Of a stretch of 64,000 bases of DNA, positions 20,033 through 25,859 are shown piece by piece. Source of the DNA: Pseudomonas sp. R84. GTDB taxonomy: Bacteria > Pseudomonadota > Gammaproteobacteria > Pseudomonadales > Pseudomonadaceae. Each line of letters begins with the position of its first letter. Within the stretch, counting starts at the first letter, position 1. The stretch spans positions 3,647,501-3,711,500 of the forward strand of contig NZ_CP019426.1 in assembly GCF_009834515.1 (NCBI RefSeq). Reading direction: 5' to 3'. Below the pieces are notes generated by a model that did not search any database, was not told where the DNA came from, and saw only the letters and a list, made by a program, of their open reading frames with translations. Both the position numbers and the translations under genes were made by a program.

Positions 20033-20523
20033 ATTGATTACTCGATTGTTTCAAAAGTAACCGCCGACACCGTGACCAAACGATGGGAGGCGGACCGTGT
20101 ACAGGCTTGGTCAACCGAGAACAATCAACTCAGCTCGCCCGAAGGCGTCCTGCACACGGCCGCCACAGCTATGCACTTCACGGTCAAAGAACTCCGCGGT
20201 GCAAATGATGGCACATATGCAATCGATTATTCCCGGGTGACCAAACCCGAACCACTGATTTTGCAGCGGCAACCGACAATAACCGCCCCGCTCCAGCCGC
20301 CGAAAGCAGACAAGGCACCAGCCTTTGTAGGAATTCGCCAAACCTTCCAAAGAAAACCGCCGCACTCCCTGACAGCCGGCGTTCAGCTCGGTTAACCATC
20401 CCTTAACGCCGTGGTCAAAAACTCTACTGAACCGCACGCCCTCAGCCATTCTGGCTGTCGCCCAGTGCGGCAGGTTCGGGTGAATCACGCCGAACTCTAG
20501 AACCGTCACTCGGGAGTCCTTTC
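20033..20523. other. Gap of about 490 bases without a convincing gene
   Basis: Overlapping open frames exist on both strands (for example 20072-20395 + and 20111-20509 -). None has a ribosome binding site, family motif or typical codon use. The sequence is GC-moderate and looks like decayed coding DNA. The 3' end carries the promoter and the ribosome binding site (GGGAG, about 20512-20516) of the DUF2790 gene. Confidence 0.45.
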
Positions 20524-22733: not shown

Positions 22734-23747
22734 TCACGCCGAGACGCTGCAGACTGCGGCGCGCTCGGCGACATGGCGCAGACTGTCGAAGTTGATATTG
22801 GCGCCCGAGTCGATTGCCACGAATGTCTGCTCGCTCACCCCGGTTCGCGCTACGTACTGCTTGATCCCGGCCACGGCCAAGGCGCCGGAAGGTTCGGTGA
22901 TCGAGCGGGTATCGTCGTAGATGTTCTTGATCGCTGCGCAGAGGTCGTCATTGCTGACGGTGATCACTTCGTCGACGCAAAAGCGGCACACCTCAAACCC
23001 GAACGCGCCGATCTGCGCTACCGCCACGCCATCGGCGAACGTCCCCACCGTGGGCAGCACGACGCGTTGATCAGCTTCGAGCGCAGCCTTCAGGCACGCT
23101 GAATGTTCGGATTCGACGCCGATGATCCGCACTTCCGGGCGCAGGTATTTGACGTAGGCGGCGATGCCGGCGATCAGACCGCCACCACCTACCGGGATAA
23201 AAATCGCATCCAGCGAACCTTGATGTTGGCGGAGGATTTCCATCGCCACGGTGCCCTGCCCGGCGATTACCTCCGGGTCATCGAACGGTGACACGAAGGT
23301 GCGCCCGGTCTGTTCCGCCAGTTGCAGCGCATGGGCCAGCGCGAACGGGAAACTCTCGCCGTGCAGCAACGCTTCAGCGCCGCGACTGCGCACACCCAGC
23401 ACTTTCAGTTCCGGCGTTGTCGCTGGCATGACGATGGTCGCCGCAATCCCGAGTTCGCGCGCTGCCAACGCCACGCCTTGCGCGTGATTGCCGGCCGAGG
23501 CGGTGATCACTCCGCGCGCCTTCTGTTCTTCACTGAGTTGTACCAGTTTGTTGTAAGCGCCACGGATCTTGAAGGAGAACGTCGGTTGCAGGTCTTCACG
23601 CTTGAGCAGAATCCGGTTGCCCAACGCCTCCGACAGCGCCGGCGCCGCTTGCAAAGGCGTGCGCACCGCAAGGTCGTACACCGGCGCGGCGAGGATCTTT
23701 TTCACATAGTGTTCAAGCAGGGTTTGCTGGTCGGGGCTGTGCGGCAT
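22734..23747 (-). CDS. Threonine dehydratase, catalytic domain only
   Basis: This fold-type II PLP enzyme of 337 residues deaminates threonine to 2-oxobutanoate. LQPTFSFKIRGAYNKL has the PLP Lys60; ITASAGNHAQGVALAA and IPVGGGGLIAGIA are the cofactor loops. It matches the catalytic half of biosynthetic IlvA and ends (NINFDSLRHVAERA) just where the ACT-like isoleucine-binding region would begin, so feedback inhibition is probably absent. The ATG at 23747 follows AGGAGACGACC on its strand. An Ile/Thr-coded leader with an attenuator lies upstream. Catabolic or biosynthetic roles cannot be separated by sequence, but the leader argues for biosynthesis. Confidence 0.88.
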   Translation of the reverse strand: MPHSPDQQTLLEHYVKKILAAPVYDLAVRTPLQAAPALSEALGNRILLKREDLQPTFSFKIRGAYNKLVQLSEEQKARGVITASAGNHAQGVALAARELGIAATIVMPATTPELKVLGVRSRGAEALLHGESFPFALAHALQLAEQTGRTFVSPFDDPEVIAGQGTVAMEILRQHQGSLDAIFIPVGGGGLIAGIAAYVKYLRPEVRIIGVESEHSACLKAALEADQRVVLPTVGTFADGVAVAQIGAFGFEVCRFCVDEVITVSNDDLCAAIKNIYDDTRSITEPSGALAVAGIKQYVARTGVSEQTFVAIDSGANINFDSLRHVAERAAVCSVSA

Positions 23748-23790
23748 GGTCGTCTCCTGACATTTTTTCAAAACCCCGGAGACAGAAAGT

Positions 23791-23815
23791 AAAAACCCGC
23801 CTCTAGGGCGGGTTG
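23791..23815 (-). terminator. Attenuator terminator of the threonine dehydratase leader
   Basis: On the minus strand AACCCGCCCTAGAGGCGGGT continues into a run of five T residues in all. The stem is 8 base pairs with a 5-base loop. It lies between the leader peptide stop (23833) and the dehydratase start (23747), so it would end transcription before the structural gene. Confidence 0.8.
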
Positions 23816-23832
23816 GGTGCTGCAGTCGTGAG

Positions 23833-23868
23833 CTAGCCCGCCAAATGAGGAATGGCGGTAATAATCAT
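23833..23868 (-). CDS. Leader peptide MIITAIPHLAG
   Basis: This 12-codon frame reads Met-Ile-Ile-Thr-Ala-Ile-Pro-His-Leu-Ala-Gly-stop. Three isoleucine codons and one threonine codon cluster in the first six positions. Its last codons contain GGCGGGC, which can pair with the CCCGCC that otherwise forms the 5' side of the terminator at 23791-23815. A ribosome stalled at the Ile codons would free GGCGGG to make an antiterminator; a ribosome reaching the stop would cover it and allow termination. No strong ribosome binding site is visible. The frame is too short to be proved by sequence alone. Confidence 0.7.
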   Translation of the reverse strand: MIITAIPHLAG

Positions 23869-23905
23869 TGGCTGGCAGCGCGATACAGTCGAAGTCATGG
23901 GCTGG

Positions 23906-23935
23906 AAATTAGCCTGTGCGCTATTGGCGAGTCAA
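23906..23935 (-). promoter_or_regulatory. Putative sigma-70 promoter of the leader and threonine dehydratase
   Basis: On the minus strand TTGACT (23930-23935) is followed after 17-18 bases by CTAATT/TAATTT (23906-23912). Transcription would begin near 23900, about 30 bases before the leader peptide start, the distance expected in an attenuator. Confidence 0.55.
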
Positions 23936-24000
23936 TGGCCAATTTTGCGCGGCGGCGTTAGTCTGGCGACTCTCTCATCACACCACGGAAGGAATGCATG

Positions 24001-24336
24001 ATGTCGATCGCCCTGCCCCTCACGGCTTTGCTCGCTTTTAGCGGTTACACCGTTTCGGTGATGCTCCAGGCTGAACAGTCGTTGATCGATTTTGGCATCA
24101 GCCTGATGTCGCGGCCCGATACGGCGCAGGTGGTGATTGATCTGTATCTGCTGGCCACGCTGGCGGGTATCTGGATGGTCAAGGATGCGCGGTCGCGTGG
24201 GCAGTCGGTTTGGTCGGTGCTGCCGTATTTGTTGTTGACGGCGGTTTTTGTCTCGGTTGGGCCGTTGTTGTATCTGGTGGTGCGTGGGGTTCGCGAACGA
24301 CGCAAGGCGGTGGAAAAGTGCAGCCAGATACTATGA
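24001..24336 (+). CDS. DUF2834-type small membrane protein
   Basis: This 111-residue protein has three hydrophobic segments (ALPLTALLAFSGYTVSVML; VVIDLYLLATLAGIWMV; LPYLLLTAVFVSVGPLLYLV) and the DUF2834 pattern DLYLLATLAGIWMVKDARSRG. The function is unknown. Two ATGs are adjacent (23998 and 24001); AAGGA at 23989-23993 gives the better spacing for the second. It is divergent from the threonine dehydratase leader. Confidence 0.75.
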   Translation: MSIALPLTALLAFSGYTVSVMLQAEQSLIDFGISLMSRPDTAQVVIDLYLLATLAGIWMVKDARSRGQSVWSVLPYLLLTAVFVSVGPLLYLVVRGVRERRKAVEKCSQIL

Positions 24337-24348
24337 ACACCTGAAACC

Positions 24349-24380
24349 CCTGTAGGAGTGAGCCTGCTCGCGATAGCGGA
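24349..24380. repeat. Half REP, family A
   Basis: CCTGTAGGAGTGAGCCTGCT followed by CGCGATAGCGG matches the left arm of the family A repeats but has no facing right arm. It sits between the DUF2834 gene and the convergent methyltransferase gene. Confidence 0.85.
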
Positions 24381-24392
24381 GTGTCGTGGGAT

Positions 24393-25166
24393 TCAGCCCT
24401 TTTTCACGGCGACGAACGCGGCGGTTTCGTAAGGCACTGTCACCACGTCCCTGCCGCGTAACTCAGGCTCGGCGGCAATCAACGCGCGAATCTGCTCATC
24501 AACCTGCGCCCGCTGCGCCTCCGGCAGCGCGGCAATGAAACTGGTCGAGCGCACGCGGTTGAAGATCACATCTTCCGGTGAGCCGGTATGGCCATGGTGA
24601 AACCGTTCAACCTGCAGCGGCGCGAATGCCGGGTGCGGAAACGCTGTGCGCCACGCGCCGGTGTAATAGCGCGGCGTGTCCCCTTCCAGCGCATTGACGA
24701 TGGCGTCCAGTTTCGGCACCCAACTGACCTGGGTGTCGCGCAGGTTCCAGATCAACCCCAACTTGCCACCGGGTTTAAGCACCCGGGCGATTTCGCTCAG
24801 TGCCTCGGTGCTGGCGAACCAGTGAAACGCTTGCGCGCAAATCACCACATCCACGGAAGCGTCGGGCAACGGCAAGTCAGTCGCCGTGCCGCTCACGGCC
24901 AGGACTTCAGGCCAGGCGTCCGAGAGCTTTTCCAGCATTTGCGCCACTGGCTCAACCGCGATCACTTGCGCACCGGTCGCTACCAGACGCCCGGTGAATT
25001 TTCCGGTGCCGGCGCCCAGATCGATCACGGTCTTGTGCCCATCCAGACCCAGCGTCGCGGCCAACCACTGACTAACCTGCGGCGGATAGTCCGGCCGCCC
25101 TTTGACGTAGCTGTCGGCAGCGGTTTTGTAGCCGGCAGCGGCTGAGTGATGGACGTGGTCGGTCAT
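24393..25166 (-). CDS. Class I SAM-dependent methyltransferase
   Basis: This 257-residue cytosolic protein has motif I VIDLGAGTGKF, motif II with an acidic residue in VIAVEPV, and motif IV DVVICAQAFHWF, typical of the UbiE/Methyltransf_11 group that includes small-molecule methyltransferases such as trans-aconitate methyltransferase. ARVLKPGGKLGLIWNLRD follows. The substrate is not evident. The ATG at 25166 is preferred over a longer frame, since residues before it do not align with the family start. It stands alone. Confidence 0.85.
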   Translation of the reverse strand: MTDHVHHSAAAGYKTAADSYVKGRPDYPPQVSQWLAATLGLDGHKTVIDLGAGTGKFTGRLVATGAQVIAVEPVAQMLEKLSDAWPEVLAVSGTATDLPLPDASVDVVICAQAFHWFASTEALSEIARVLKPGGKLGLIWNLRDTQVSWVPKLDAIVNALEGDTPRYYTGAWRTAFPHPAFAPLQVERFHHGHTGSPEDVIFNRVRSTSFIAALPEAQRAQVDEQIRALIAAEPELRGRDVVTVPYETAAFVAVKKG

Positions 25167-25325
25167 GGCAACGCTCCTTACGGCAAAACATCGGATCGAC
25201 GGCAGACGCTCCCGAGCATAGCGCTTGAATTTACGCTGAACTTGAACAGTCACTGATAAAGCAATGAATAAAAATTCACGCTGTGGTGTTCAAAGTGAAA
25301 CATAACCCCCTGTGGAGCCTTGCCC

Positions 25326-25859
25326 ATGACTATCCGTTCCGTTATGTTCGCCGCCCCGTTGTTACTGGCCGCCGCGATGTCCAGCCAATTGGCCTTCGCC
25401 AACGGTGATGAAGAAGCTCCGGTACAGAAACCCGAATGCCCGAAAGGCCAGGTCTGGGACAGCAAAACGCAGAAGTGCGTGATGCAAGTCAGCAAAGCAC
25501 TTTCAGATGCCGACCGTACCGATTATGCCTATCGCCTCGCCAAGGTCGGTCGCTACGAAGAAGCCCTGGCGCTGCTCGATACGCTCAAGCAACCGAAAAC
25601 CGCCAAGGCCCTCAACTATCGCGGTTATGCCACGCGCAAACTGGGGCGCACTGATGAGGGCATCGGTTATTACCTGCAATCGGTGAAGCTTGATCCGCAG
25701 TATGCGCAAGTGCGCGAATACCTCGGCGAGGCCTATGTGATCAAGGGTCGCGTCGATCTGGCGCAGGAACAGTTGCAGCAGATCCAATCGATTTGCGGTA
25801 CGTCCTGCGAGGAATACCAGGATCTGGCCGAAGCCATCAACGATTCATCGAAAACCTGA
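25326..25859 (+). CDS. Exported TPR protein
   Basis: This 177-residue protein has a signal peptide (after LAFA, about residue 24), a short cysteine-containing segment (KPECPKGQVWDSKTQKC) and a TPR-like array (about 65-150: YAYRLAKVGRYEEALALLD, ALNYRGYATRKLGRTDEGIG, YLGEAYVIKGRVDLAQEQL). It probably works as a periplasmic protein-binding scaffold. It is the first of three genes with the sigma factor and anti-sigma factor, 18 bases before the likely sigma start, so it may feed the signal sensed by the anti-sigma factor. Confidence 0.8.
   Translation: MTIRSVMFAAPLLLAAAMSSQLAFANGDEEAPVQKPECPKGQVWDSKTQKCVMQVSKALSDADRTDYAYRLAKVGRYEEALALLDTLKQPKTAKALNYRGYATRKLGRTDEGIGYYLQSVKLDPQYAQVREYLGEAYVIKGRVDLAQEQLQQIQSICGTSCEEYQDLAEAINDSSKT

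Follow-up and report, generated by a model that had tools for sequence, protein, structure and literature searches.

Elements upstream of ilvA2

We analysed a 64,000-nt window of the Pseudomonas sp. R84 genome (contig NZ_CP019426.1), and all coordinates are positions in this window. The window carries ilvA2, a threonine ammonia-lyase gene, preceded by a promoter-like pair, a short open reading frame and an intrinsic terminator, all on the minus strand (Table 1). The first-pass annotation had pointed out the promoter-like pair, the 8-bp terminator with five T residues before the dehydratase start, and a complementarity between the end of the leader frame and the 5' arm of the terminator. All three are present: the boxes read TTGACT and TAATTT, GGCGGG (23842-23837) is complementary to CCCGCC, and the ilvA2 ATG at 23747 lies 43 nt past the T run. 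The start of the leader frame and the number of RNA segments were misread, as described below. Divergent from ilvA2, at 23998-24336 (+), is a gene for a DUF2834 protein that scores just over the Pfam cut-off, and a match to the Rfam C4 antisense RNA (RF01695; 49.1 bits, cut-off 45) lies at 20083-20170 (-).

Table 1. Features of the ilvA2 leader region in the window, and loci with related leaders before other genes
Feature	Position or loci	Strand	Evidence or remarks
-35 box TTGACT	23930..23935	(-)	sequence; best-scoring -35 starts TTGA in 78/78 unique upstream regions
spacer between -35 and -10 boxes	18 nt	(-)	sequence
-10 box TAATTT	23906..23911	(-)	7 nt before leader ATG; predicted transcription start at or beside A of ATG
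leader peptide ORF MTSTVSRCQPMIITAIPHLAG*, 21 codons, no Shine-Dalgarno	23833..23898	(-)	in-frame ATG in 79/79; TAG stop 23835-23833
control codons Ile12-Ile13 (ATT ATT)	23860..23865	(-)	at least 2 Ile among six sensing codons in 102/103 distinct leaders
segment 1 CCGCCA (inside Thr14-Ala15-Ile16 codons)	23853..23858	(-)	partner of segment 2; 95.2% of cells paired, 49 leaders
segment 2 TGGCGGG	23837..23843	(-)	pairs with segment 1 (hairpin) or segment 3 (antiterminator)
segment 3 AACCCGCC, terminator 5' arm	23807..23814	(-)	terminator scan, alignments
segment 4 GGCGGGTT, terminator 3' arm	23794..23801	(-)	helix 97.7% of cells paired, 49 leaders; double changes at two pairs
terminator AACCCGCC-CTAGA-GGCGGGTT, 8 bp	23814-23794	(-)	with T run reaches 23791
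T run of intrinsic terminator, five T	23791..23795	(-)	sequence, terminator scan
Rfam RF00624 (P9) match	23792..23868	(-)	85 bits, E 8e-17, gathering score 43
ilvA2, 337-aa threonine ammonia-lyase, catalytic domain only	22734..23747	(-)	PALP 276 bits, without Thr_dehydrat_C; AGGAG before ATG
leader before adenylate-kinase-like P-loop gene (about 174 aa)	L150-L159, L162, L163, L165, L167, L172		tblastn
leader before SnoaL/YybH-like gene	L160, L161, L164, L170, L171, L173, L192-L195, L197-L199		tblastn
leader before AAA_33 kinase (about 165 aa), some Pseudomonas genomes	L196, L200, L201, L202		tblastn

Statistics on the single sequence did not reach significance: a scan of 23000-25500 returned 2 terminators, the one before ilvA2 among them, compared with 2.9 +/- 1.8 in shuffles, and 0 promoter pairs passed where 0.6 were expected. 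We therefore drew the significance of the element from its conservation, that is, from the RF00624 match and its occurrence across the genus. The match covers model positions 1-74 of 74. There is one copy in the R84 genome. A search of relatives found RF00624 in 31 of 57 genomes (R84 included; 27 above the cut-off), and across the genus it was present in 188 of 249 (181 above the cut-off); none of 14 control genomes had it. One genome has tandem P9 matches beside a run of N (G007:C18:100544-100695; L023, L183), perhaps an assembly artefact.

P9 has been both predicted and detected in P. aeruginosa, as a small RNA with no known function. It is the same element as the window leader, but Rfam gives its type as 'Gene', whereas Trp_leader is 'Cis-reg; leader', and the displayed line of the entry makes no mention of an attenuator. 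Because the match begins at the ATG at 23868, 30 nt inside the leader frame, it misses the first 10 leader codons. Among the matches listed in a literature search, in which subscription papers are under-covered, no title or abstract start describes an attenuator of ilvA in Pseudomonas or treats P9 as one, and the parts seen of PMC2965389, PMC9239102, PMC5542712, PMC2375449, PMC7822408 and PMC8395346 led to none. We conclude that the kind of regulator is already known and that the family is already in Rfam, filed as a small RNA.

Leader frame, predicted transcription start and probable amino acid signal

The short frame noted at first, MIITAIPHLAG, does exist at 23868-23833 and was counted as 12 codons (11 amino acids and a stop), but it is the second half of a 21-residue peptide whose conserved start is the in-frame ATG at 23898, 30 nt upstream. 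To compare the two candidate starts we used 145 loci, from which 8 were skipped as non-leader loci; a motif consisting of an Ile run and a terminator was searched in the remaining 137. The 58 loci without a motif match were 55 ilvA loci lacking the leader plus L027, L030 and L041. The other 79 elements precede ilvA (76), a kinase gene (2) or a SnoaL-like gene (1) as judged by tblastn. All 79 have an in-frame ATG 27-36 nt ahead of the Ile run, whereas an ATG at the 23868 position occurs in 5 (the window itself, L001, and L018, L047, L052 and L054), always alongside the upstream one, and the shorter start was rejected. Being in frame was the criterion by which the ATG was selected, so its offset modulo 3 is not independent evidence; what counts is that such an ATG was present each time, near the promoter. 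In 35 distant or second-copy leaders, with the start position fixed by a covariance model rather than by the frame, 34 have ATG and L159 has GTG 4 nt upstream, and each of these frames has at least 2 Ile codons.

The peptide itself is conserved unevenly. Its N-terminal half varies widely across species, and the excess of changes at third codon positions there is weak (245, 256 and 325 differences at positions 1, 2 and 3). In L049 (P. protegens) and L051 (P. chlororaphis) there is one base fewer before segment 2, which shifts the frame at that point: the RNA segment is intact, the peptide tail LAG becomes WRAC, and a stop follows directly. From this frameshift we take it that the leader tail is preserved for the RNA and the Ile codons for translation. 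Those codons are ATT in 238 of 265 cases over 74 distinct leaders, compared with 207 of 678 in a crude set of 28 long open frames of the window.

The position of the promoter bears on how the frame would be translated. Over 78 unique upstream regions of the 79-element set, the -10 box stops 6 or 7 nt short of the leader ATG in 64 and 8-12 nt short of it in 14, with a -35/-10 spacer of 16-18 nt. The promoter pair in each region is the best-scoring pick and is thus maximised; the -35 box is also seen in register in the alignment. The distant leaders were judged by eye. The base at -1 of the ATG is C in 74/78, and Shine-Dalgarno-like 4-mers ahead of the ATG were found in 0/78 upstream regions. 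Since the -10 box is mostly 6-7 nt before the ATG and Shine-Dalgarno-like words are absent, the leader mRNA is probably leaderless, with a predicted start at the ATG. There is precedent in Sinorhizobium meliloti: the 5' end of rnTrpL, an attenuator RNA, is the ATG of its leader frame (PMC7298713). That attenuator senses Trp and is alphaproteobacterial, whereas the 5' end in the window is predicted.

To ask which amino acid the leader senses, we defined the sensing codons as the six at which a stalled ribosome would mask segment 1 but not segment 2. We counted them in 103 distinct leaders, comprising 67 Pseudomonas ilvA leaders and 36 distant or second-copy leaders; there were 104 distinct over the first 90 nt, from which we removed L029, a duplicate of locus L153 that starts later. 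(Three loci bear two labels: L026/L150, L028/L192 and L029/L153.) At least 2 Ile codons were found in 67/67 Pseudomonas ilvA leaders and 35/36 of the others (102/103 in total), compared with at least 2 Thr codons in 0/67 and 9/36 (9/103). Because the search models and motifs contain ATTATT, the counts are biased towards isoleucine, and the Ile count is not independent. The initial suggestion had been starvation for isoleucine or threonine. A response to threonine, the substrate, or to threonine plus isoleucine would have in its favour that Thr14 lies inside the sensing region of the window leader, that a stall there also frees segment 2 in the fold, and that every peptide counted contains a Thr at some position. 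Against it, besides the counts, stand related leaders such as MNLNLTHKVSRIIIIP, whose core has no Thr, and several of which read RIIIIP, and we regard this response as very unlikely. The isoleucine part of the suggestion stands, the threonine co-signal was rejected, and the codons identify isoleucine, not threonine, as the amino acid that the leader is predicted to sense.

Alternative pairings and the proposed attenuation mechanism

The leader had been described as a compact three-segment design. That description overlooked the segment CCGCCA (23858-23853), which can pair with TGGCGG of segment 2; segment 2 can instead pair through GGCGGG with CCCGCC of segment 3, and segment 3 pairs with segment 4. 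We examined these helices in two alignments, one of 20 leaders (A1; 17 before ilvA and 3 before other genes) and one of 49 (A2; 36 distant or second-copy rows, two of them, L191 and L169, from ilvA, and 13 diverse Pseudomonas ilvA leaders). The percentage of cells paired in A1 was 99.2% for 1:2, 99.4% for 3:4 and 100% for 2:3; in A2 the 2:3 value was 99.0%, with the other two as given in Table 1. For 1:2 and 3:4 together in A2, 96.6% of cells were paired with a covariation score of 0.216, each matched by 0/500 shuffles, and 29 cells had double changes compared with 7.6 +/- 2.1 in shuffles (0/500 as high). Two further measures were less distinctive: double changes fell in 4 pairs, a number reached by 88/500 shuffles, and the number of pair types was reached by 53/500. 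The double changes in 1:2 are from G-C to A-U. At a central position both 1:2 and 3:4 alternate between G-C and A-U, and 2:3 there is C-G, U-G or U-A in 48/49 leaders. Clear covariation of 2:3 alone was absent in A2, its paired cells being matched by 79/500 shuffles and its score by 44/500. The segments are thus conserved in relatives, which the first-pass annotation had proposed to check, with covariation in 1:2 and 3:4 but not in 2:3, and the three-segment design was rejected on the covariation of the segment 1 helix.

To follow how a ribosome would affect these pairings, we folded the leader RNA with the ribosome footprint masked. In nascent RNA cut off ahead of segment 4, 2:3 is the best fold when the ribosome sits at Ile12, Ile13 or Thr14, and it does not form when the ribosome is at Ile16 or the stop codon. 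In the full-length leader RNA the terminator is thermodynamically best in every masked state, which means that the choice must fall during transcription and that readthrough would be kinetic. Without a ribosome, segment 2 of the window RNA is sequestered by the upstream sequence GCCAATGA rather than by segment 1; the outcome is the same, with segment 3 free and the terminator formed. We then asked whether the geometry holds generally, requiring at least 2 Ile codons whose stalling frees segment 2 and a terminating ribosome that covers segment 2. This was found in 101 of the 103 leaders, the exceptions being L159 and L200.

The same masking procedure applied to thrL of E. coli gave the same picture, with a shortened 2:3 remaining at codon 16, and there too the full-length RNA favours the terminator, so that readthrough is likewise kinetic. 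Like the window leader, thrL before thrABC has a leader peptide with control codons and segments 1-4. It senses Thr and Ile and is translated with a Shine-Dalgarno sequence and a 5' UTR, whereas the window leader is predicted to be leaderless and to sense isoleucine. The enterobacterial ilvGMEDA attenuator (ilvL) also brings branched-chain control to ilvA, but it is multivalent (Ile, Val, Leu) and stands at the head of an operon whose gene set includes ilvA, whereas in the window ilvA2 is alone and the signal would be Ile only.

From the sequence conservation, the pairing options, the covariation of 1:2 and 3:4 and the geometry, we infer a promoter start, translation, stalling and regulation as follows. 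RNA polymerase probably starts at or beside the A of the leader ATG (23898), and a ribosome would therefore load on a leaderless mRNA and translate the 21-codon peptide. When charged tRNA-Ile is ample, the ribosome would reach the stop codon and cover segment 2, the terminator 3:4 would form, and termination would yield the 'P9 RNA', a leader transcript of about 108 nt. When tRNA-Ile is short, the ribosome would stall at Ile12 or Ile13 and cover segment 1, leaving segment 2 free to pair with segment 3 before segment 4 is made, and ilvA2 would be transcribed. With no ribosome, the upstream pairing would hold segment 2 and the terminator would form. Taken together, the conserved 2:3 pairing, the covarying terminator and segment 1 helices and the thrL-like masked folds agree with the earlier proposal of a leader-peptide attenuator in which antiterminator and terminator exclude each other, and we consider it very likely that 23791-23935 is an isoleucine-sensing, ribosome-mediated transcription attenuator of ilvA2. 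Of that earlier interpretation the attenuator is retained; the short start, the three segments, the threonine co-signal and the replacement of feedback (see below) are not. If so, the database small RNA P9 gains a testable job, and attenuation of the classical kind, with a leader frame that is leaderless, probably controls an isoleucine gene of Pseudomonas.

Three other explanations were weighed. The first is that the hairpin is a plain 5'-UTR terminator, giving constant attenuation or dividing transcripts, with no sensing. The 3:4 hairpin is indeed the most stable in all complete-leader folds, but such a terminator would not account for the leader frame, its Ile codons or the conservation of segments 1 and 2, and we hold it to be extremely improbable. 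The second is that P9 is a stand-alone, trans-acting small RNA, with its short frame and its place before ilvA2 incidental. The Rfam type agrees with this, and a terminated leader of about 108 nt would accumulate in either case. Nevertheless, the members read have an in-frame start codon and Ile codons, the stop is placed for a ribosome to cover segment 2 with the full geometry nearly throughout, the alternative pairings are conserved, and a gene follows directly in 115/115 elements (tblastn; 79 plus 36, with three loci counted twice); we judge this explanation very improbable. The third is a cis-acting attenuator whose terminated RNA or leader peptide may also act in trans. The predicted layout is that of rnTrpL in S. 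meliloti, with the 5' end at the leader ATG (PMC7298713); a trans role has been reported for this leaderless trpL. The wide variation in the N-terminal half of the peptide among species speaks against an additional role of this kind, which we regard as unlikely. An attenuator that responds to isoleucine remains the reading we favour.

Genes downstream of the leader

It had also been proposed that the leader replaces enzyme feedback, given that the encoded enzyme has no regulatory domain. The premise holds: Pfam finds PALP and no Thr_dehydrat_C in IlvA2, and a match to TIGR01124 (492.9 bits, model positions 2-320 of 499) shows that its nearest counterpart is the catalytic portion of biosynthetic IlvA. 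The R84 genome also encodes a full-length IlvA1 (frame of 507 aa, 73% identical), and the 300 nt upstream of it contain no such leader. Among named short-IlvA loci the terminator is present in 18/18 and the leader peptide too in 17/18 (L041 is clipped by a contig end). However, seven loci have the same leader before an IlvA of 503-513 aa, and two Thr_dehydrat_C stretches were found in 7/7 of these proteins scanned.

To order these events, we built a tree of 81 IlvA proteins with a midpoint root (L074, 4 aa, was dropped). The 19 short enzymes group in a single clade (100/99), which sits inside a ladder of full-length enzymes that have the leader (L055, L071, L059 and L062; supports 100/99, 100/97 and 100/92). 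The leader is thus older than the domain loss, and on this rooting the tree indicates that the regulatory domain was lost once, later, within the leader-bearing lineage. The attenuator as a substitute for lost feedback was therefore rejected, which corrects the view of a leader acquired in exchange for enzyme feedback. In L075, L116 and L118 (P. congelans, P. bohemica and P. viridiflava) the enzyme behind the leader belongs to the other IlvA paralogue lineage, suggesting recombination between leader and enzyme. At L010 the leader is present and the ilvA2 frame is 63 aa, its N-terminus joining a later motif as if internally deleted.

Related leaders also occur before other genes. A model, R1, in which three non-ilvA leaders were already included (L026, L028 and L029), matched 23/293 genomes of the order (16/118 genera) and 4/274 genomes of the class, R84 included. 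The 36 distant or second-copy elements precede a P-loop gene (15), a SnoaL-like gene (13), an AAA_33 gene (4) and, once each, ilvA (L169), ileS (L168), a citramalate-synthase-like gene (L166) and a GNAT gene (L174); these single-gene classes were assigned by tblastn with their own proteins. The ilvA, ileS and citramalate-synthase-like genes fit isoleucine supply, and we counted them in favour of the attenuator. L169 IlvA matches PRK08639 over the cut-off (462.4 bits), L168 ileS matches TIGR00392 at 579.7 bits (cut-off 621.4) with its frame clipped by the locus end, and L166 matches the CimA model NF042433 at 613.9 bits (cut-off 950). The best NCBIfam match of the L174 protein is ileS_w_GNAT, a GNAT domain found inside some IleRS, at 1.1e-17 and far under the model cut-off.

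For most leaders outside Pseudomonas ilvA, the downstream gene has no known isoleucine link, which we counted against the attenuator. Several sources name the P-loop protein 'adenylate kinase', its PRK08118 match is below the cut-off, and for the kinase of L151 sequence comparison matched no solved structure. The SnoaL-like proteins match SnoaL_3, with a structure match to YybH (2gxf), and the AAA_33 matches score 107.5 and 103.3 bits. When RF00624 was run on 12 loci other than Pseudomonas ilvA, 5 were over the cut-off (L171, L161, L152, L201 and L199), 6 were below it and L168 gave no match; the L174 leader scores better with Trp_leader (36.8 bits, cut-off 41) than with RF00624.

We also started from the downstream genes. 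Kinase homologues were found in 15/244 genomes of the order, 12 of them with the leader; it was not seen at L223, L229 (a stop lies inside the match) or L231. SnoaL-like homologues were found in 5/119 genomes of the genus, with the leader in 2 (G003 and G094); no leader was seen ahead of the matches in G106, G026 and G121, of which G026 and G121 are partial or diverged. Judged from the open frames of 13 of 14 fetched regions (all but L205), each cassette appears to be a single gene, and the contexts differ. One tentative possibility is that RF00624 comprises leaderless isoleucine-tRNA sensors that have spread before single-gene cassettes (P-loop kinases, SnoaL/YybH-like, AAA_33 and GNAT), besides ilvA, ileS and citramalate-synthase-like genes, and that the cassettes may be switched on when charged tRNA-Ile is short, perhaps under antibiotics that target IleRS. 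The kinase, SnoaL-like and GNAT genes would thereby gain a predicted inducer, a shortage of charged tRNA-Ile. The SnoaL/YybH-like leaders are partly second copies, in genomes that also bear the ilvA2 leader.
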